Shown here piece by piece: positions 54,714 through 64,000 of a stretch of DNA of 64,000 nt (position 1 is the stretch's first letter; every line of letters starts with the position of its first letter). The position numbers and the translations under genes are program-made. This stretch comes from Marinomonas aquiplantarum (GTDB taxonomy: Bacteria > Pseudomonadota > Gammaproteobacteria > Pseudomonadales > Marinomonadaceae), in the NCBI RefSeq assembly GCF_003314975.1, contig NZ_QNRF01000002.1, positions 434,001 to 498,000 of the forward strand. Reading direction: 5' to 3'. Below the pieces are notes generated by a model, which worked only from the letters and a program-made list of their open reading frames with translations, ran no database searches and was not told where the DNA came from.

Positions 54714-57700
54714 TTGTCCGCATCGTTCATACATTTAAAAGTGCATACTGAGTTTTCTTTGGTGGATGGCTTGGTCAAAGTCAAAGGCCTGTTAGGGACA
54801 ACGGAATTGATGTCCATGCCGGCAGTGGCCATCACTGATGAAAATAACTTATGTGGTTTTGTGCGTTTTTATAAAGGTGCTATGGATAAGGGCATTAAGC
54901 CCATATGTGGTGCTGACGTCGTTATCGAGGATGATACAGGTGAGCTGGAATCTCGTTATCGTATGACTTTGTTGGCGATGTCCAATAAAGGTTACAAAAA
55001 CATCATAGAAATTATTTCTAAAGGTTATCAATTAGGGCAAGTAGAAGGTCGACCTGTTATCCAGAGAGAGTGGATTGAGGCGTCTAGCGAAGACGTGATC
55101 GCTTTATCGGGTGCTGGTTATGGTGACGTTGGTTTGTTGTTGCAAAAAGGCCGTGCAGAGTTGGCGAAGCAGCACTTGTCTTATTGGATGTCTGTGTTCC
55201 CTAATCGTTTTTATGTGGAGTTGCAGCGGACCAGTCGAGCGGGAGAAGAAGACTACATTCATGCTGTTGTCCCTCTGGCTGCTGAGCTTGGTTGTCCAGT
55301 GGTGGCGACTAATGACGTGCGCTTTCTAAAACGAGAAAACTTTGAAGCCCATGAGGCACGAGTGTGTATTCATGATGGTGTCACCCTTGATGATCCGCGA
55401 AGAGTACGTCGTTATTCGGAAGAACAGTACTTTAAAACCCCTGAAGAAATGGCAGAACTGTTCCAAGACATTCCAGAAGCCTTGGAAAATACCGTTGAAA
55501 TAGCTAAACGCTGCAGTGTGGATGTCTTGCTGGGTAAATATTTTTTACCGGATTATCCTGTGCCAGATGGCATGACCATGGAAGAGTTTTTTAATAAGTT
55601 GTCTTTCGATGGTCTAAAAGAGCGTTTTGATATTTTGACGTTGAAATACGGTGAACGTGTTGAAAAGCGCCGCCAGGAATATTGGGGTCGTCTGGATTTC
55701 GAATTAAACATTATTAACCAGATGGGATTTCCTGGTTACTTCTTGATCGTAATGGACTTTATACAATGGGCCAAGGATAACGATATTCCGGTAGGCCCTG
55801 GTCGTGGTTCGGGTGCCGGTTCATTGGTGGCTTATGCGTTAAAAATCACCGACCTTGATCCGCTTGAATACGATTTGCTATTCGAACGATTCTTGAATCC
55901 AGAGCGGGTATCCATGCCTGACTTTGATATCGACTTTTGCATGGATAACCGAGATAAGGTAATCGATTACGTGTCGCGTACCTATGGTCGTGATGCGGTT
56001 TCTCAGATTATTACCTTTGGTGCCATGGCAGCCAAAGCCGTTGTTCGCGATGTCGCGCGGGTACAAGGTAAGCCTTATAGCTTAGGGGATAAGCTGTCCA
56101 AGTTGATCCCCTTTGAAATTGGAATGACACTCAGTAAAGCCCTTGAAGAAGAGCCCGCTCTACCAGAATTCTTGGCGGCCGATGAAGAAGCGGCGGATGT
56201 CATGGAAATGGCCATGTCCCTTGAAGGGGTGGTCAGAAACTTTGGTAAGCACGCTGGTGGTGTGGTCATCGCACCCACTAAGCTGGTTGATTTCGCACCA
56301 CTGTATTGTGAAGAAGACGGCTCAGGCTTGGTAACTCAATATGACAAAAACGACGTAGAAGAAGCCGGTCTGGTGAAGTTTGACTTCTTGGGCTTGAAAA
56401 CCTTGACCGTCGTCGATTGGGCCGTGAAAAACATTAATGATATTCATGCCTTAGAAGGCAAGCCGCCATTGGATATCGCGCTGATTGATCTGGAAGATAA
56501 ATCCACATACGACTTACTGCAAAGAGCCGAAACCACGGCGGTATTCCAGCTGGAATCCCGTGGTATGAAAGAATTGATTAAAAAGCTATTACCATCTCGT
56601 TTCGAAGATATTATCGCCTTGGTGGCCTTGTATCGTCCTGGCCCACTTGGGTCGGGCATGGTAGACGACTTTATAAACCGTAAGCACGGTCGTTCTGAAT
56701 TGGCTTTCCCGCACCCAGATTACCAGCATGAAGATTTGATCCCAGTATTGGAACCCACCTACGGCATCATTTTGTATCAAGAACAGGTAATGCAAATCGC
56801 TCAGGTATTGGCGAAATTTAGTCTGGGTGGTGCCGATCTACTGCGTCGAGCAATGGGTAAAAAGAAAGCTGAGGTGATGGCGGAACAGCGTTTGATCTTT
56901 ATGGAAGGGGCGTTGAAAAACAATGTCGATAAGGATTTGTCCGGCAACATCTTTGATTTAATGGAGAAGTTTGCGGGCTATGGTTTCAACAAGTCTCACT
57001 CGGCTGCGTACGCCTTAGTATCCTATCAAACCGCTTGGTTGAAAAATCATTATCCGGCGCCTTTCATGGCCGCGGTATTGTCTGCCGATATGCAGAATAC
57101 CGACAAGATCGTTATCTTCATTGAAGAGTGTCGTTCGATGAATTTAGCGTTGGAATTGCCCAACGTTAATGAGTCAGTCTACAAATTTACGGTCAACCCA
57201 GCTGGCGCCATAGTGTATGGTTTAGGTGCCATTAAAGGGGTGGGTGAAGGCCCAATTGAAGCCATTGTTGAAGCTCGCAAAGAGGGGCCATTTGAGCACA
57301 TTTTTGATTTCTGTCAGCGTGTGGGTAAGAAGGTTAACAAGCGCGTGATGGAGGCATTGGTTCGTTCTGGGGCATTTGACACCATAGGGCCAAACCGTGC
57401 GACCTTGTATGCTTGCATTGATGAAGCGTTGAAGCGAGCAGTGCAGGATGCCAAAAACCAAGATGCAGGTATGATGGACCTGTTTGGGGTGGCGGTAGAA
57501 GAGAGCACGGAAGATGCCTATAAGGAAATAGGTATCCAGCATGAGTGGCCTGGTAGGCAGCGTCTAGACGGTGAAAAAGACACCCTAGGCTTGTATGTAA
57601 CAGGTCACCCAATTGATGAGTATGAAAAGGAGGTCAGACGATTTGCACGCTCGAAAATAGTCGATCTGCAACCTAAGCGTGGCGATACCCAAGTCATGGC

Positions 57701-58193
57701 TGGATTGATTGTGGATTTGCGTGTAACAAAAAGTAAAAAAGGTGGTAACATTGCCTTCGTCACACTGGATGATCGCTCAGCTCGTATTGAGGTGACGGTG
57801 TTCCCTGACAACTATGAAAACTTCAAAGACGTCATCGTCAAAGACGAAGTGGTTGTGGTAGAAGGGGAGATTTCAGTAGACGAGTTTCGTGGTGGACAGA
57901 AAGTCATTGCCCGGAATGTACTTGATATTGCTCAAGCTCGTATTCGTTATGTCGAAGCATTGCGAATTACTTGGAGTTCAGAGTCAGTAACACCAGCTGA
58001 TATTCAGTCATTAGCTGATCAAATGTCAGAATTCCGCGGAGACGGTTGTGATGTGGTCATTGGGTTTGATACCCCTGAAGCTTTTGGCGATATCCGTTTA
58101 GGTTCGAGTTGGCGAGTTCGTCCAGATGACGATTTAATTCACCAACTACAGAAACAATACGGTAAACAAAATGTTCAGTTAGTGTATACTTAG
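54714..58193 (+). CDS. dnaE: DNA polymerase III alpha subunit
   Basis: Replicative polymerase, 1159 aa, equal to the E. coli type. It begins with a PHP domain (FIHLKVHTEFSLVDG). The palm carries the catalytic aspartates in VSMPDFDIDFCMDNRD, and GPGRGSGAGSLVAY is in the active-site region. Then come fingers with YQEQVMQIAQ, a tandem helix-hairpin-helix part, an OB domain (VMAGLIVDLRVTKSKKG) and a C-terminal tau-binding domain. TTG start at 54714, 3 bp after rnhB, with AGAGGGAT before it. Confidence 0.97.
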   Translation: MSASFIHLKVHTEFSLVDGLVKVKGLLGTTELMSMPAVAITDENNLCGFVRFYKGAMDKGIKPICGADVVIEDDTGELESRYRMTLLAMSNKGYKNIIEIISKGYQLGQVEGRPVIQREWIEASSEDVIALSGAGYGDVGLLLQKGRAELAKQHLSYWMSVFPNRFYVELQRTSRAGEEDYIHAVVPLAAELGCPVVATNDVRFLKRENFEAHEARVCIHDGVTLDDPRRVRRYSEEQYFKTPEEMAELFQDIPEALENTVEIAKRCSVDVLLGKYFLPDYPVPDGMTMEEFFNKLSFDGLKERFDILTLKYGERVEKRRQEYWGRLDFELNIINQMGFPGYFLIVMDFIQWAKDNDIPVGPGRGSGAGSLVAYALKITDLDPLEYDLLFERFLNPERVSMPDFDIDFCMDNRDKVIDYVSRTYGRDAVSQIITFGAMAAKAVVRDVARVQGKPYSLGDKLSKLIPFEIGMTLSKALEEEPALPEFLAADEEAADVMEMAMSLEGVVRNFGKHAGGVVIAPTKLVDFAPLYCEEDGSGLVTQYDKNDVEEAGLVKFDFLGLKTLTVVDWAVKNINDIHALEGKPPLDIALIDLEDKSTYDLLQRAETTAVFQLESRGMKELIKKLLPSRFEDIIALVALYRPGPLGSGMVDDFINRKHGRSELAFPHPDYQHEDLIPVLEPTYGIILYQEQVMQIAQVLAKFSLGGADLLRRAMGKKKAEVMAEQRLIFMEGALKNNVDKDLSGNIFDLMEKFAGYGFNKSHSAAYALVSYQTAWLKNHYPAPFMAAVLSADMQNTDKIVIFIEECRSMNLALELPNVNESVYKFTVNPAGAIVYGLGAIKGVGEGPIEAIVEARKEGPFEHIFDFCQRVGKKVNKRVMEALVRSGAFDTIGPNRATLYACIDEALKRAVQDAKNQDAGMMDLFGVAVEESTEDAYKEIGIQHEWPGRQRLDGEKDTLGLYVTGHPIDEYEKEVRRFARSKIVDLQPKRGDTQVMAGLIVDLRVTKSKKGGNIAFVTLDDRSARIEVTVFPDNYENFKDVIVKDEVVVVEGEISVDEFRGGQKVIARNVLDIAQARIRYVEALRITWSSESVTPADIQSLADQMSEFRGDGCDVVIGFDTPEAFGDIRLGSSWRVRPDDDLIHQLQKQYGKQNVQLVYT

Positions 58194-58201
58194 GCTCATT
58201 T

Positions 58202-58314
58202 TATAATTTGTGCAAAGGAATGTGGCGTAGTAATACGTTTTATCGCTTTAGAGCAATTGGCATGATGCCATTTGCCTTATATTTGATGGCAACCAGACAG
58301 CAGTGTAGTTAACG
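58202..58314 (+). promoter_or_regulatory. accA upstream region with perfect -10 and TGGCA-type repeats
   Basis: TATAAT at 58202-58207 lies just after the dnaE stop; a weak TTAGTG is 16 bp upstream inside dnaE. Further down, TGGCAT-G-ATGCCA (58258-58270) is a perfect inverted repeat and TTGCC (58272-58276) pairs with GGCAA (58288-58292). These may be leader hairpins or an operator. Confidence 0.4.
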
Positions 58315-59262
58315 ATGAATTTAAATTATTTACCATTCGAGCAGCCGATTGCTGAGCTTGAACAAAAAATTGAAGAATTACGTCTAGTAGGCAATGATAA
58401 CGAACTGAACATCAGTGATGAAATCAGCCGACTAGAAGACAAAAAAGTCGCCTTAACAAAAAGTTTATTCAGTAATTTAGGCGCTTGGGAAGTATCACAA
58501 CTTTCCCGTCATCCAAAGCGTCCTTATACGCTGGATTATATTGAACACGTCTTTACTGATTTCGAAGAAATGCATGGTGATCGTCACTATGCAGATGACC
58601 GTGCCATTGTCGGTGGTATTGCGCGTCTAGATGGCCGTCCTGTGATGATCATTGGTCATCAGAAAGGCCGTGAAGTAAAAGAAAAAGTATTGCGTAATTT
58701 TGGCATGCCACGTCCAGAAGGTTACCGTAAAGCCTTGCGCTTGATGGAAACCGCTGAGCGTTTCAATATGCCAATCGTTACCTTAATTGATACACCTGGG
58801 GCTTACCCAGGTATCGGTGCAGAAGAGCGTGGTCAGAGTGAAGCCATTGCATACAACCTTGCTGTTATGTCGCGCCTAAAAACACCAATCATCTCAACCG
58901 TTATCGGTGAAGGTGGTTCTGGTGGTGCGTTGGCAATCGGTGTGTGTGATGAATTGATGATGTTGCAATACGGCACTTACTCAGTTATTTCACCAGAAGG
59001 TTGTGCTTCTATCCTATGGAAGAGTGCAGAACGTGCATCTGATGCGGCGAAAGCCATGGGCATCACTGCGCCTCGTCTGAAAGAGCTTGGTTTGGTTGAT
59101 ACCATTATTCCAGAGCCAATGGGTGGAGCGCACAATGCTCATGAGCAAATGGCTCACAGCCTGAAAGAAAACATCTTAGCGGCACTGGATCGTATGGAAG
59201 CGCTAACAACAGAAGAGTTGTTGGCACGTCGTTACAACCGCTTAATGTCATACGGCTTATAA
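58315..59262 (+). CDS. accA: Acetyl-CoA carboxylase carboxyltransferase alpha subunit
   Basis: With AccD transfers carboxyl from biotin to acetyl-CoA for fatty acid synthesis. It has 315 aa. Crotonase-type fold with [33 protein letters not shown] and [14 protein letters not shown]. The order dnaE-accA-tilS is conserved. An intrinsic terminator follows. Confidence 0.98.
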
Positions 59263-59276
59263 TCGATTGATTTGCT

Positions 59277-59304
59277 AAAAAGCCTCCTGATTGGAGGCTT
59301 TTTT
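59277..59304 (+). terminator. Intrinsic terminator after accA
   Basis: Stem AAAAAGCCTCC/GGAGGCTTTTT (59277-59287, 59293-59303) with a 5 nt loop and T run. Confidence 0.92.
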
Positions 59305-59342
59305 GTTTCTGCTTCTGACGCTTAAAAAATGGTTCACTTTAT

Positions 59343-60653
59343 ATGAGTTATCAGCCGCATCCGCCTTTCACCCTTACGACTGAATTAGAGTTTAATCCAA
59401 TTTGGTTGGCGTCTTTGTTTACGCAAGCAAACAGGGTTTGGGTGGCTTACAGTGGTGGCGTTGATTCCCATGTACTATTGCACGCTTTGGTGAGTCAAAT
59501 TACCCCTGAGCAAAGAGCAAAGGTTGCCGTGATCCATGTACATCATGGTTTAAGCCCAAATGCAGATGCATGGTTAGACCATTGTGAACAAGTATGCCAA
59601 GCGCTTAATGTAACTTTTTATGCCCACAAAGTGGATTTGAAAGTACAAGCGTCAGTGGAAGATGCGGCTCGCCAAGCAAGATATCAAGTTTTTGAAGATC
59701 GCTTGGTGGCTGACGATGTTTTGCTTTTAGCTCATCATCAAGGGGATCAAGCGGAAACTGTGATGTTTCGACTGGCAAGAGGAACTGGAACGAAAGGGTT
59801 AGCAGGAATGCCAGCAGTTCGACCTTTGGGGGATCAGGGGGCTTGCTTGGTACGGCCACTCTTGTCGATCACTAAGACTCAAATCGAAGATTATGCTCAG
59901 CAATATGGTTTGCATTGGGTTGAGGACGAATCCAATCAAGACGAACGCTTTTCGCGTAACTTTTTACGTCAAAACGTCATTCCCTTAATGAAGACACACT
60001 TTCCAAATATGGAGCAGAGTGTTTCCAACATGGCGCAACGAGTTGCTGACGACTACGAAATGTTGGCTAGCTTGTCGGCGCAACATTTATCGACGGTATC
60101 AAATACGCATGGTGGTTTGGATTTGAATTGGCTGTATCAACAACCAATGCCACAAAGGCGTTTTTGGTTACGACAATTCGTAGAGCAAAAAGGCCGCAGC
60201 TTAACGCAAGCGCAATGTGACAGCGTCCTTAATATGTTTGCTGGTGTTGAAGATAAACAACCTGAGTTTGTGTTTGCTGATGGTCGCTTGATGCGTCATC
60301 AGAATACCTTGTATGTGTTGCCAAATGAGCTTCCAGTTGAGTACGGGGCGTTAGTCATTGGGCAAGTAAAAACGCGAGGTTTTGACCAGTTGCAGCTGAT
60401 CCAAGGAGATGGGGTTGAGCTAAGAGCGCGGCCTTTGGGAGCCAAGCTATTGATGCAAAATGGGCAGACTCGGTCGTTGAAAAAATGGCTAAATGATCAG
60501 CAAATTCCAGTTTGGTGGCGCGAACATTTACCCTATTTGTTTATCCAAGATGAGTTAGTTGCCATTGCCAATTTATGGCGTCACCCTGATTATGGTCAGC
60601 TTCAGTTCGAGTGGCGACCAAGCAAAGTTTTACCCTTTCCCAATCATCACTAA
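59343..60653 (+). CDS. tilS: tRNA(Ile)-lysidine synthetase
   Basis: Makes lysidine at position 34 of the tRNA(Ile) that reads AUA. It has 436 aa. PP-loop S37-G-G-V-D-S42, HHQGDQAETVMFRLARGTG, and WVEDESNQDERFSRNFLR are diagnostic; the C-terminal domain is the long enterobacterial type. Its stop overlaps the stop of the convergent kinase gene by 4 bp. Confidence 0.96.
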   Translation: MSYQPHPPFTLTTELEFNPIWLASLFTQANRVWVAYSGGVDSHVLLHALVSQITPEQRAKVAVIHVHHGLSPNADAWLDHCEQVCQALNVTFYAHKVDLKVQASVEDAARQARYQVFEDRLVADDVLLLAHHQGDQAETVMFRLARGTGTKGLAGMPAVRPLGDQGACLVRPLLSITKTQIEDYAQQYGLHWVEDESNQDERFSRNFLRQNVIPLMKTHFPNMEQSVSNMAQRVADDYEMLASLSAQHLSTVSNTHGGLDLNWLYQQPMPQRRFWLRQFVEQKGRSLTQAQCDSVLNMFAGVEDKQPEFVFADGRLMRHQNTLYVLPNELPVEYGALVIGQVKTRGFDQLQLIQGDGVELRARPLGAKLLMQNGQTRSLKKWLNDQQIPVWWREHLPYLFIQDELVAIANLWRHPDYGQLQFEWRPSKVLPFPNHH

Positions 60654-61327
60654 ACCTGAATGAGCCAATCTGCATATTTTTTTGTTTGAGCAACTTGCTC
60701 AGCATTAAGTGCATCGTTTTGCTGAATTCTATTCATGGCTTGTTGATAAGATAGATTCCATGCAGCTTGATGCCTTAATGCTAATCGTTCGATAACAGTG
60801 GGGAGTGGTACATCTAGGAACCAGCGTTCATCATAATAATCCGCGGCTTTCTGCCAATCTGTTTCAGGTAAGAGTAAGTAAAGTCCTTCAATCAAGATGA
60901 CTTTGGTATGTTGTGAAATGGATATATGGTCGTCAATTGGGTCGCCTAACGCATGGTCAAAACTGGGCCATTGGCAGTCTACGGTTTGGTAGGCGTTGGC
61001 AATGTCAGTGACATACTGAGCGAATTTATGGTGATCAAATGTCCAAGCGGCTCCACGGCGGGCAAAGGCTTCATTGGCGTTTGGTAGGTCGCTCAAGGCC
61101 TGTTTGGTGAGGTGGAATCCGTCCATAGACAGGCAAGCAACCTGCGAAGAGTGTTGTGTATTAACGTGTTCGGCTAAGTAATTAGCCAGCGTGCTTTTTC
61201 CAGAACCTGGGCCACCCGCAAGCGCGATCAAACAGCGTCTATCCTGTTGTAAATGCTGTTGGATTTTATCAATTGCTTGTTTCACATCGGCTGTATTTCG
61301 GTACAAATCGTCAGGTGTAGTGTTCAT
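60650..61327 (-). CDS. P-loop kinase of the uridine kinase / phosphoribulokinase-like family
   Basis: A 225 aa protein with Walker A GGPGSGKSTLANYLAEH, a Walker B-type segment KVILIEGLYLLLPE, and substrate-region residues SMDGFHLTKQAL and RRGAAWTFDHHKF. The architecture is that of YggC/FrcK-like kinases related to uridine and pantothenate kinases; the substrate (a sugar, nucleoside or vitamin) cannot be read from sequence. It is convergent with tilS and divergent from the next small gene. Confidence 0.82.
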   Translation of the reverse strand: MNTTPDDLYRNTADVKQAIDKIQQHLQQDRRCLIALAGGPGSGKSTLANYLAEHVNTQHSSQVACLSMDGFHLTKQALSDLPNANEAFARRGAAWTFDHHKFAQYVTDIANAYQTVDCQWPSFDHALGDPIDDHISISQHTKVILIEGLYLLLPETDWQKAADYYDERWFLDVPLPTVIERLALRHQAAWNLSYQQAMNRIQQNDALNAEQVAQTKKYADWLIQV

Positions 61328-61475
61328 TGGGTCAGCTGCTTATGAGTGATAATTATTGTTGTTTTGTGAGCCTCTGGTTCTGAAAAATTTAGGGGGTCTA
61401 AGATATTCTCTGAACCTATACGGCTTTCTTTGCGTACTAATAATACCTTCTAAAGAACCTTTGAGGCCATTCAAC

Positions 61476-61775
61476 ATGGAATTAAAAGAATTAAAACGTA
61501 CTCAACATTTTGAAAAAGTGAAGTTGCATTCCTTGGAGTCAAATCTCTATCAGTTGTCGGTGGTGATAGATGGTAAAGAGGATTATGTTATGGATGGTAA
61601 GGGGCGCTTTATGACCAGCCACAACAAACTCGAGCTGCAATCTTTGTTCAAAGAGAAGCAGGTGGATGCCATGGTGTTATGCCATCAAAGCGCCTACGAT
61701 GAGATGGTGGGTCAACCACCAAGCATGGCGGGAAATACCCTAGAAGTGCCATTGGGTAATACGGATTTAGCTTAG
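61476..61775 (+). CDS. Small protein resembling DUF6482
   Basis: A 99 aa soluble protein with no signal peptide. Start at the ATG at 61476, supported by TTTGAGG about 12 bp upstream; an upstream in-frame ATG at 61356 lacks this. The pattern SLESNLYQLSVVIDGKEDYV ... VDAMVLCHQSAYDEMVG resembles short proteins grouped as DUF6482 in marine and pseudomonad genomes; this is from memory and not checked. Function unknown. Confidence 0.68.
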   Translation: MELKELKRTQHFEKVKLHSLESNLYQLSVVIDGKEDYVMDGKGRFMTSHNKLELQSLFKEKQVDAMVLCHQSAYDEMVGQPPSMAGNTLEVPLGNTDLA

Positions 61776-61786
61776 TTGTTAATCCG

Positions 61787-62494
61787 TTACTGGAGCACTT
61801 GCATCTTGTCATTAGTGTCTTCCTTTTGCGAGAAGACTTTAGCATATCCCAGCGTGGCGTTAGCGTGCTCCCGCATGATGGATTCTGCGCGGCTACTTTG
61901 GCCTTGGCTAATGGCGTCAAACACCGCGTGATGTTGCATGTGAGCGAAATTAAAACGGCGAAATTCTAGTCGCAAATTATTAGCATCAAAAGCCAATGCG
62001 CTTACCGAGGCAAAAGGTAAGTGTTCGTTGCGACTAAGCGCTTCAGCGATAGCTGGGTTATTGCTGGCATCAATAATAATTTGATGAAAGCGCTGGTTGA
62101 TGTCGTGATACTGTGCCAAGTCCTGTTCATCAAGCCGACCATTTTCAAACAGCTGATCGCCCGACTGAAGCAATTGCTTTAACTCTATTCTTTGGCTTTC
62201 TGATAGCCCGCTTTCTGCGGCTTGTCTGGCGGCTAAGCCTTCAAGTACGCCTCTAACTTCAATGGCGCCAGTGATGTCAGATAAAGTGACCTGTCTTACT
62301 TCATAGCCACGAGCAGGTCGTTTGGTCAGTAAACCTTCCTGTTCCAAGGTTCGAAATGCGATGCGTATTGGGGTGCGCGAGACGCCGAGTCGTTCTGCTG
62401 TCGGAATTTCGGCGATTCGTTCTCCTGCGGCCAGTTCCCCTGACAGCACCATTTGTCTTAATCGACTGATTACTTCCTGACCCGATTTACTCAT
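61787..62494 (-). CDS. vanR: GntR-family (FadR/FCD subfamily) regulator, VanR-like
   Basis: Repressor of the divergent vanillate genes by context. The 235 aa protein has an N-terminal winged helix (GERIAEIPTAERLGVSRTPI, GLLTKRPARGYEV) and a C-terminal all-helical FCD domain with metal-type residues in YHDINQRFHQII, HMQHHAVFDAI and MREHANAT. FCD domains sense small carboxylates; vanillate is the expected ligand. The operators between it and vanA match the palindrome described for Caulobacter VanR. Confidence 0.88.
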   Translation of the reverse strand: MSKSGQEVISRLRQMVLSGELAAGERIAEIPTAERLGVSRTPIRIAFRTLEQEGLLTKRPARGYEVRQVTLSDITGAIEVRGVLEGLAARQAAESGLSESQRIELKQLLQSGDQLFENGRLDEQDLAQYHDINQRFHQIIIDASNNPAIAEALSRNEHLPFASVSALAFDANNLRLEFRRFNFAHMQHHAVFDAISQGQSSRAESIMREHANATLGYAKVFSQKEDTNDKMQVLQ

Positions 62495-62528
62495 GCCTTA
62501 TCTCAGTTCTAGATTAAAGAAAGAGAGA

Positions 62529-62557
62529 ATAATAGCGCATCTAGTGCAAATGTGAAA
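62529..62557 (-). promoter_or_regulatory. Predicted vanR promoter
   Basis: On the minus strand TTTCAC (62552-62557) and TATTAT (62529-62534) are 17 bp apart, 35 bp before the vanR ATG. The -35 overlaps the edge of operator 1, consistent with autorepression. Confidence 0.5.
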
Positions 62558-62571
62558 ATTGGATCCAATTT
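62556..62571. promoter_or_regulatory. VanR-type operator 1
   Basis: Perfect 16 bp palindrome AAATTGGATCCAATTT containing the 12-mer ATTGGATCCAAT known as the VanR operator in Caulobacter. Confidence 0.8.
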
Positions 62572-62592
62572 GATGTTTTTTAACAGTTTAGA

Positions 62593-62599
62593 ATTGGAT
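62593..62599. promoter_or_regulatory. VanR half-site
   Basis: ATTGGAT followed by AAGGC: left half of the operator only. May be chance or a weak auxiliary site. Confidence 0.3.
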
Positions 62600-62619
62600 A
62601 AGGCATTCAAAAAAAGTTT

Positions 62620-62631
62620 AATGGATCCAAT
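62620..62631. promoter_or_regulatory. VanR-type operator 2
   Basis: AATGGATCCAAT, one mismatch from the 12-mer palindrome. It lies about 20 bp upstream of the extended -10 of the vanA promoter, covering the -35 area. Confidence 0.7.
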
Positions 62632-62647
62632 TTTGTGGTTTTGGGCT

Positions 62648-62656
62648 TGTTATTAT
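62648..62656 (+). promoter_or_regulatory. Predicted extended -10 of the vanA promoter
   Basis: TGTTATTAT (TG-N-TATTAT) with no good -35. A transcript would start near 62663, between operators 2 and 3, as expected for a repressible promoter. Confidence 0.5.
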
Positions 62657-62670
62657 ATGTTTTTGTTTTA

Positions 62671-62684
62671 TATTGGATCCAATA
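62671..62684. promoter_or_regulatory. VanR-type operator 3
   Basis: Perfect 14 bp palindrome TATTGGATCCAATA, placed just downstream of the predicted transcription start of vanA, about 28 bp before its ATG. Confidence 0.8.
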
Positions 62685-62711
62685 AATACAATAAAAAGCA
62701 GGAGTATCCTA

Positions 62712-63806
62712 ATGAAACAACAAACCTATCCCAAAAATGCTTGGTATGTGGCCGCCATGTCTGAAGAGGTGGCGGGCAGCAAACCTCTTGGTCGTAAAAT
62801 TTGTGGTGAAAGCATCGCTTTCTATCGCTCTCATGATAACCAGATCGCCGCCGTTCTCGATTTTTGTCCACACCGTGGTGCGGCTTTATCATTGGGGTAC
62901 GTGGAAGATGGGCTTTTGGTATGTGGGTACCATGGCTTAAAAATGGGCGCGGATGGTAAAACTAAGTCGATGCCGCTGCAGCGAGTTCAAGGTTTTCCAT
63001 GCATGAAATCCTATGCTGTCGAAGAGCGTTATGGGTTTATCTGGGTTTGGCCTGGTGAACAAAGCAAAGCGGATGTCTCTTTGATACCTCAATTAGAGTG
63101 GGCCGATAACCCAGAATGGGCCTACGGTGGTGGCCTTTACCACATTAATTGTGACTATCGTTTGATGATTGATAACCTGATGGATCTGACTCATGAAACT
63201 TATGTTCATGCGAGCAGTATTGGTCAGAAAGAAATTGACGAATCGCCTGTGGATACGAAAGTCGATGGCGATAAAGTCATTACCAGTCGTTTCATGGAAA
63301 ACATCATGCCGCCGCCATTCTGGCAAGCAGCGTTACGTGGCAATAATTTAGCTGACGATGTTCCTGTTGATCGTTGGCAGATTTGCCGTTTCAGTCCACC
63401 TTCTCATGTGATGATTGATGTGGGTGTGGCGCATGCTGGACAGGGTGGTTTTGAGGCCAGTAACGATCATAAAGCCAGTAGTACCGTAGTGGATTTTATT
63501 ACGCCTGAAAGTGACACTTCTATCTGGTATTTTTGGGGGATGGCGCGAAACTTTAATCCTCAAGACGAAGCGCTAACGGATCGCATTCGAGAAGGGCAAG
63601 GGGCGATTTTCGCGGAAGATTTAGAGGTCTTGGAGCGGCAGCAGGAAAACTTATTAGCATTTCCCGACTATGATTTATTGAAACTGGACATTGATGCTGG
63701 TGGCGTGCAGTCTCGAAAAATCATTGAGCGTATTATTGCACAAGAGCAGCAAGAAAATGTCAAAGCAGCGCCATCTGATGGTCCGCTGCAAGTGATTTCT
63801 TTTTAG
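62712..63806 (+). CDS. vanA: Vanillate O-demethylase, oxygenase subunit
   Basis: Rieske non-heme iron oxygenase converting vanillate to protocatechuate and formaldehyde with VanB. It has 364 aa from the ATG at 62712 (AGGAG 7 bp upstream); a TTG at 62673 inside operator 3 is rejected. Rieske ligands C52-P-H54 and C71-G-Y-H74; catalytic iron region DNLMDLTHETYVH. The opening YPKNAWYVAAM and VQGFPCMKSYAVEERYGFIW are close to known VanA. vanB begins 25 bp later. Confidence 0.94.
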   Translation: MKQQTYPKNAWYVAAMSEEVAGSKPLGRKICGESIAFYRSHDNQIAAVLDFCPHRGAALSLGYVEDGLLVCGYHGLKMGADGKTKSMPLQRVQGFPCMKSYAVEERYGFIWVWPGEQSKADVSLIPQLEWADNPEWAYGGGLYHINCDYRLMIDNLMDLTHETYVHASSIGQKEIDESPVDTKVDGDKVITSRFMENIMPPPFWQAALRGNNLADDVPVDRWQICRFSPPSHVMIDVGVAHAGQGGFEASNDHKASSTVVDFITPESDTSIWYFWGMARNFNPQDEALTDRIREGQGAIFAEDLEVLERQQENLLAFPDYDLLKLDIDAGGVQSRKIIERIIAQEQQENVKAAPSDGPLQVISF

Positions 63807-63831: not shown

Positions 63832-64000
63832 ATGATTCCAGTGGTTGTGAAAAACGTCATTGAGGAAGCGCAAAATATTGTGCGACTCGTCTTGGGGAGC
63901 CGTGATGGGACGGATTTGCCTACTTTTGAAGCTGGCGCGCATATTGATGTGCATTTGCCCAGTGGTCTGATTCGCCAATATTCTTTATGTCGGTTGCAGG
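63832..64000 (+). CDS. vanB: Vanillate O-demethylase, reductase subunit (partial, N-terminus only)
   Basis: Class IA oxygenase reductase that passes electrons from NAD(P)H to VanA. Only 56 codons are visible from the ATG at 63832. They give the flavin-binding domain start: VVVKNVIEEAQNIVRLVL, FEAGAHIDVHLPSG and the FMN-binding R-Q-Y-S-L-C. Position after vanA supports the name; the ferredoxin end is outside the window. Confidence 0.88.
   Translation, partial: MIPVVVKNVIEEAQNIVRLVLGSRDGTDLPTFEAGAHIDVHLPSGLIRQYSLCRLQ

Follow-up and report, generated by a model that had tools for sequence, protein, structure and literature searches.

Three palindromes lying between the divergent vanR and vanA genes of Marinomonas aquiplantarum are best explained, from what they spell and where they stand, as docking sites for VanR, the vanillate-responsive repressor encoded beside them. 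These operators are ordinary, ancient parts of the vanillate switch, and both the operator and the repressor were already known. Two of the sites, O2 and O3, are separated by 52 bp (five helical turns), and as this spacing is near-invariant across many bacteria, it hints that the two repressors bound there may act together.

The window analyzed here, the whole stretch of 64,000 nucleotides, contains O1 on the vanR side at 62558-62569 and O3, the predicted main VanR operator of vanA, overlapping the -10, at 62672-62683; both are exact copies of ATTGGATCCAAT. The third site, O2, located at 62620-62631, reads AATGGATCCAAT, with one mismatch; it precedes the vanA -35 and is a candidate auxiliary operator for VanR. 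Measured from start to start, the spacings are 62 bp for O1-O2 and 52 bp for O2-O3, and the three-palindrome array described between the van genes by an earlier, sequence-only reading was thus reproduced in positions, mismatch count and spacings. O1 and O3 are the sole exact copies of ATTGGATCCAAT in the genome (3.77 Mb searched). In a control of 20,000 dinucleotide-preserving shuffles of the 217-bp vanR-vanA intergenic region, with sites counted at ≤1 mismatch, the mean was 0.00275 sites vs. the three observed, and two such sites were not obtained in any of the shuffles. The same reading had listed a half-site at 62593-62599, which does exist (AATTGGAT) but has disappeared from each of the three nearest relatives, all of which keep the full sites O1, O2 and O3. 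It is therefore probably a chance occurrence and was rejected as an operator part.

The vanR gene (61787..62494, minus strand) encodes a 235-aa GntR-family repressor with an FCD domain, placed in the VanR group by Pfam and structure matches. On the plus strand, vanA (62712..63806) encodes the 364-aa oxygenase subunit of vanillate O-demethylase (Pfam VanA_C 3e-49, Rieske 1e-19), and the start of vanB, for the reductase subunit with a Fer2 domain, follows at 63832..64000 and runs past the window end. The complete vanB ORF (L035 7833-8789; 318 aa) has the Fer2 domain and is followed by pyrG. vanR thus adjoins vanAB, with the VanA_C and Rieske domains in the divergent gene and the reductase domain in the next one. 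An in-frame TTG at 62673, within O3, extends the mechanically called vanA ORF to 377 aa; translation more probably starts from the ATG at 62712, which follows an AGGAG.

VanR combines an N-terminal GntR winged helix-turn-helix (Pfam GntR 3e-13, 49.6 bits, cutoff 27) with a C-terminal FCD domain (Pfam FCD 1e-16, 61.9 bits, cutoff 24.3), and belongs to the VanR group of the FCD subfamily, GntR superfamily. Atu1419 is its closest solved relative by sequence (6z74, E 4e-38), and the same structure is the best fold match of the predicted VanR model. In this model six C-terminal helices were found, as in the VanR group, not seven (71-95, 99-116, 123-144, 147-155, 174-196 and 200-215). An alignment of 22 VanRs shows no variation at the residues matching the Zn ligands of Atu1419 (N133, H137, H188, and H210) or at those matching its DNA-contact arginines (R40, R44).

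The predicted vanR promoter (62529..62556, minus strand; -35 TTCACA, -10 TATTAT) is a weak match to the consensus only, near chance, and it is partly kept in two of three close relatives; it carried no weight in the analysis. O1 had been said to adjoin its -35 and does lie 1 bp upstream of it; the promoter itself is not conserved in the fourth aligned genome. The vanA core promoter was predicted at 62647..62674 (plus strand) by consensus, with a -35 TTGTTA at 62647-62652 and a -10 TATATT at 62669-62674, the last three bases of which are covered by O3. O2 and O3 therefore bracket the whole predicted core promoter and not, as first described, the -10 only. Promoter prediction from a single sequence is near chance level here (3 found vs. 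1.9 expected). The geometry at vanA recurs in relatives, O3 being preceded at about 22-27 bp by a TTGAC-like -35 and having a TAT or TATT at its edge, so that in these loci too O3 looks to overlap the -10, with O2 apparently some 13-15 bp upstream of the -35.

VanR is encoded in 32 of 48 Marinomonas genomes. O1, O2, and O3 are all present (≤2 mismatches) in 30 of these 32 vanR loci, while the remaining two have no recognizable O1. Sought in the van promoters of close relatives, as the sequence-only reading had suggested, the palindromes are there, and the claim stands. The 16 genomes lacking VanR contain three exact operator copies in total, similar to the reversed control word; exact copies in the genus track vanR. 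For a wider sample, vanR-vanA loci were collected by order, phylum, and named-genome searches. As some genomes were fetched twice, the locus counts are not independent; clustering of the VanR sequences at 80% identity was used to obtain independent counts. The same operator occurs at vanA in Pseudomonas, Marinobacterium, Psychrobacter, Marinobacter, and others, and the array reads as the standard VanR operator of gammaproteobacteria. The proposal that these are VanR operators serving both directions is supported, and their 12-mer is that of Caulobacter VanO. In the whole genome 22 sites with ≤1 mismatch were counted, moderately above the nine of the reversed control word. A wider VanR regulon was rejected, with six of the seven examined single-mismatch sites lying inside ORFs. 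The remaining one, an operator-like ATTGGATCCAAA at L039 3112-3123, stands in the intergenic region between divergent sodium:alanine symporter and HTH genes.

A Caulobacter-like site in this organism had been read as a sign that regulator and operator had moved together, with their having been kept together as the alternative. The 12-mer is indeed identical to that in Caulobacter tools, and two genomes from outside the class (L188, L189) suggest that the regulator-operator pair may move elsewhere. Their VanR is 59% identical to the one studied here, has one exact operator and adjoins a different oxygenase, only 47% identical to VanA; the two loci may be a genuine example of a regulator-operator pair transferred to another enzyme. 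For the Marinomonas locus itself, horizontal transfer of both from a Caulobacter-like source is nevertheless highly improbable. The operator is general in gammaproteobacterial VanR loci, including at vanA. In quick trees in which many inner branches are weak, the Marinomonas sequences group as a single clade for VanR and again for VanA, with Caulobacter-type sequences elsewhere, and the pairwise identities of the two proteins are correlated (0.71). The van locus precedes pyrG in every named Marinomonas locus checked. Because of this general occurrence, the single clades and the fixed place before pyrG, regulator and operator appear to have been kept together by vertical descent, with no import from Caulobacter, and on the trees together with the synteny a recent transfer from that source was rejected. 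The van genes (window 54714-63806 and L035 6674-14689) lie in a core-gene neighbourhood, between a tilS-side block (accA, tilS, a kinase gene, and DUF6482) and pyrG-eno-ispD-ispF-truD, a position shared by the named Marinomonas loci.

Comparison of loci divides the sites into two likely units, O1 with vanR and the O2-O3 pair with vanA. Among divergent loci the O1-O2 spacing is free and shows no phase, the next site upstream being scattered mostly from 53 to about 220 bp. Many Pseudomonas loci have vanR elsewhere, mostly convergent and downstream of vanAB. Two sites are found at the vanA promoter in 35 of 42 loci with vanR displaced in this way, vs. three sites in 67 of 98 divergent loci, and a displaced vanR mostly has no operator near its start. 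Since loci in which vanR is not divergent from vanA usually lack the third site, we assigned O1 to vanR; this lack and the variable position of O1 would fit autoregulation. The non-divergent loci L105, L125, and L156 retain the 52-bp pair, which therefore belongs to vanA and not to vanR. Looping through O1 was rejected, as the O1-O2 spacing is free (53 to >200 bp) and unphased, which disfavors any phase-dependent loop needing O1. Looping or cooperative binding, originally suggested for the array as a whole, is hence plausible for the O2-O3 pair only, where the spacing is fixed and helically quantized.

Of the 90 divergent loci carrying two or more sites, 85 have O2 and O3 51-54 bp apart, 63 of them at exactly 52 bp, duplicated genomes included. 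A pair at 51-54 bp was found in 18 of the VanR clusters (80% identity), across which the standard deviation of the O2-O3 spacing is 0.67 bp vs. 18 bp for the distance from O3 to the vanA ATG. Between clusters, identity over the 39 bases preceding O3 is 33%, compared with 27% for shuffled spacers, so the spacer appears to be conserved in length and hardly in letters. Five representatives (L055, L056, L063, L133, and L143) have 62-63 bp instead, i.e., one helical turn more, resulting from three independent changes on the VanR tree, and no gammaproteobacterial locus was seen at 55-61 bp. Convergent Pseudomonas loci show spacings of 84-217 bp without clear helical phase. Thus, the phase is strong below 70 bp (51-54 and 62-63 bp) and is seen neither for O1-O2 nor at 84-217 bp; because of these unphased loci, and since the shift test for 62-63 bp was post hoc, the helical argument is limited to short spacings. 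O2 was lost in several loci or is held at 84-217 bp, so it is dispensable over evolution. L055 carries five GGATCC-cored sites from 193 to 46 bp upstream of vanA, which form two interleaved series (-193, -131, -69 and -108, -46) at exact 62-bp spacing. In the convergent Pseudomonas loci (L223-L225 and others), distances from O3 to an upstream operator recur at 84-87, 97-98, 159-162, and 192-193 bp. The sites, their conservation and the spacing rule are thus read directly from the DNA.

Taken as a whole, the arrangement is probably best explained by blockade at O3, autoregulation at O1 and an auxiliary role of O2 acting jointly with O3. When neither vanillate nor a related effector is present, a VanR dimer occupying O3 would stop transcription of vanAB by covering the start site and the last part of the vanA -10, while a dimer on O1, beside the vanR promoter, would limit vanR. 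O2, on the same DNA face as O3 and upstream of it by five helical turns, would serve as an auxiliary site. The dimer bound there would act in concert with the O3 dimer, by a VanR dimer-of-dimers bridge or by contact with the polymerase held between, and effector binding would free VanR from all three sites. Binding, repression, the roles of the single sites and O2-O3 cooperation are what we infer in this scheme.

The fixed spacing could also be set by the polymerase and not by contact between repressors. VanR on O2, predicted at about -55 from the vanA start, would then act on the alpha C-terminal domain or hide a distal UP element. The position of O2 matches that of distal UP elements, the A/T-rich tract behind it stands where a proximal one would be, and one-turn shifts would be tolerated under this reading too; for loci with O2 at 84-217 bp a different mode would have to be invoked, and we regard polymerase contact as the sole source of the spacing as unlikely.

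The closest experimental parallel for the roles of single sites is VanR2 of Pseudomonas sp. NGC7, which binds three GGGATCCC repeats independently of one another, represses its operon via the repeat directly following the -10 and also represses its own gene; the structural promoter was unaffected when the upstream repeat was mutated (PMC12314914). The two systems share three GGATCC-cored repeats, a divergent regulator-demethylase region, autoregulation, and main repression at the -10 repeat. Together with the positions of the sites, this experiment is the reason for proposing repression at O3 and autoregulation at O1. VanR2 differs in being a paralogue, only 30-33% identical to VanR, in the outer bases of its operator (GGGATCCC), and in having its third repeat downstream and a site spacing unlike that of the Marinomonas array. 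As the upstream-repeat mutation left the structural promoter unchanged, the result speaks against O2 being necessary, with the reservation that the NGC7 spacing is different. The independent binding by VanR2, together with this mutation result, is the main evidence against cooperativity at the Marinomonas array. One could accordingly suppose that O3 alone represses vanA and O1 alone vanR, with O2 as a spare or tuning site and the spacing kept by promoter architecture. Such independence was measured for the related three-repeat VanR2, and O2 is missing in some loci (e.g., L064, L065, and L098). Yet it leaves unexplained the constancy of 51-54 bp while the spacer letters drift, and also why gammaproteobacterial departures below 70 bp land on 62-63 bp; we consider it possible but rather doubtful.

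Joint action of O2 and O3 is suggested by the constant spacing, its quantization, the reasoning applied to GntR divergons and the tetramer of Atu1419. In GntR-family divergons, a constant inter-site distance was taken as pointing to joint action (PMC4494728), and the same argument would apply to O2-O3; the word VanR is absent from the main text of that paper, in which no argument from helical quantization was found. Atu1419 of Agrobacterium fabrum is a tetramer, for which the authors propose that one tetramer bridges two palindromes, about 10 nm apart when bound, with looping of the DNA (PMC7797058). Like VanR, Atu1419 (6z74) belongs to the VanR group, has a palindrome at the -10 and a G at the third base from the centre. 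Its palindrome is ATGTATACAT and its sites are 190 bp apart, and the tetramer was shown for Atu1419, while the present VanR is known from sequence and model. In gammaproteobacteria, VanR might similarly repress vanA through a very short, phase-locked bridge, its dimer-of-dimers holding O2 and O3 at a distance of five turns, or six in certain lineages, with the core promoter wrapped between them, a geometry retained as the promoter DNA diverged. By our estimate the 52 bp measure about 17.7 nm, with a bending cost near 14 kT, and bent into a rough half-circle their ends would be about 11 nm apart, so that the bridge is geometrically possible. The 40 bp of DNA between O2 and O3 would be short for protein bridging, and this specific form of cooperation seems unlikely. 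In the cited literature we found no description of a 52-bp (or one turn more) VanR spacing rule. The rule offers a natural series for testing cooperative binding or DNA bridging by VanR-group repressors and a practical hint toward tighter vanillate-inducible promoters.

The operator itself is familiar from the VanR/VanO system of Caulobacter origin (PMC4920640), in which VanO is ATTGGATCCAATagcgctATTGGATCCAAT, used in yeast as two copies of the same 12-mer (PMC7970624). Caulobacter crescentus VanR is likewise a GntR-family vanillate repressor with the identical 12-bp operator ATTGGATCCAAT. At L191, which we take to be a Caulobacter-type locus, only two sites occur, both exact and at a distance of 40 bp, which counts against the scheme proposed here; the Marinomonas locus has three, including the 52-bp pair. 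Set against these systems, the array presents the ordinary operators of a known repressor; the idea of transfer fails, and that of cooperation survives, in a sharper form, for one pair of sites.
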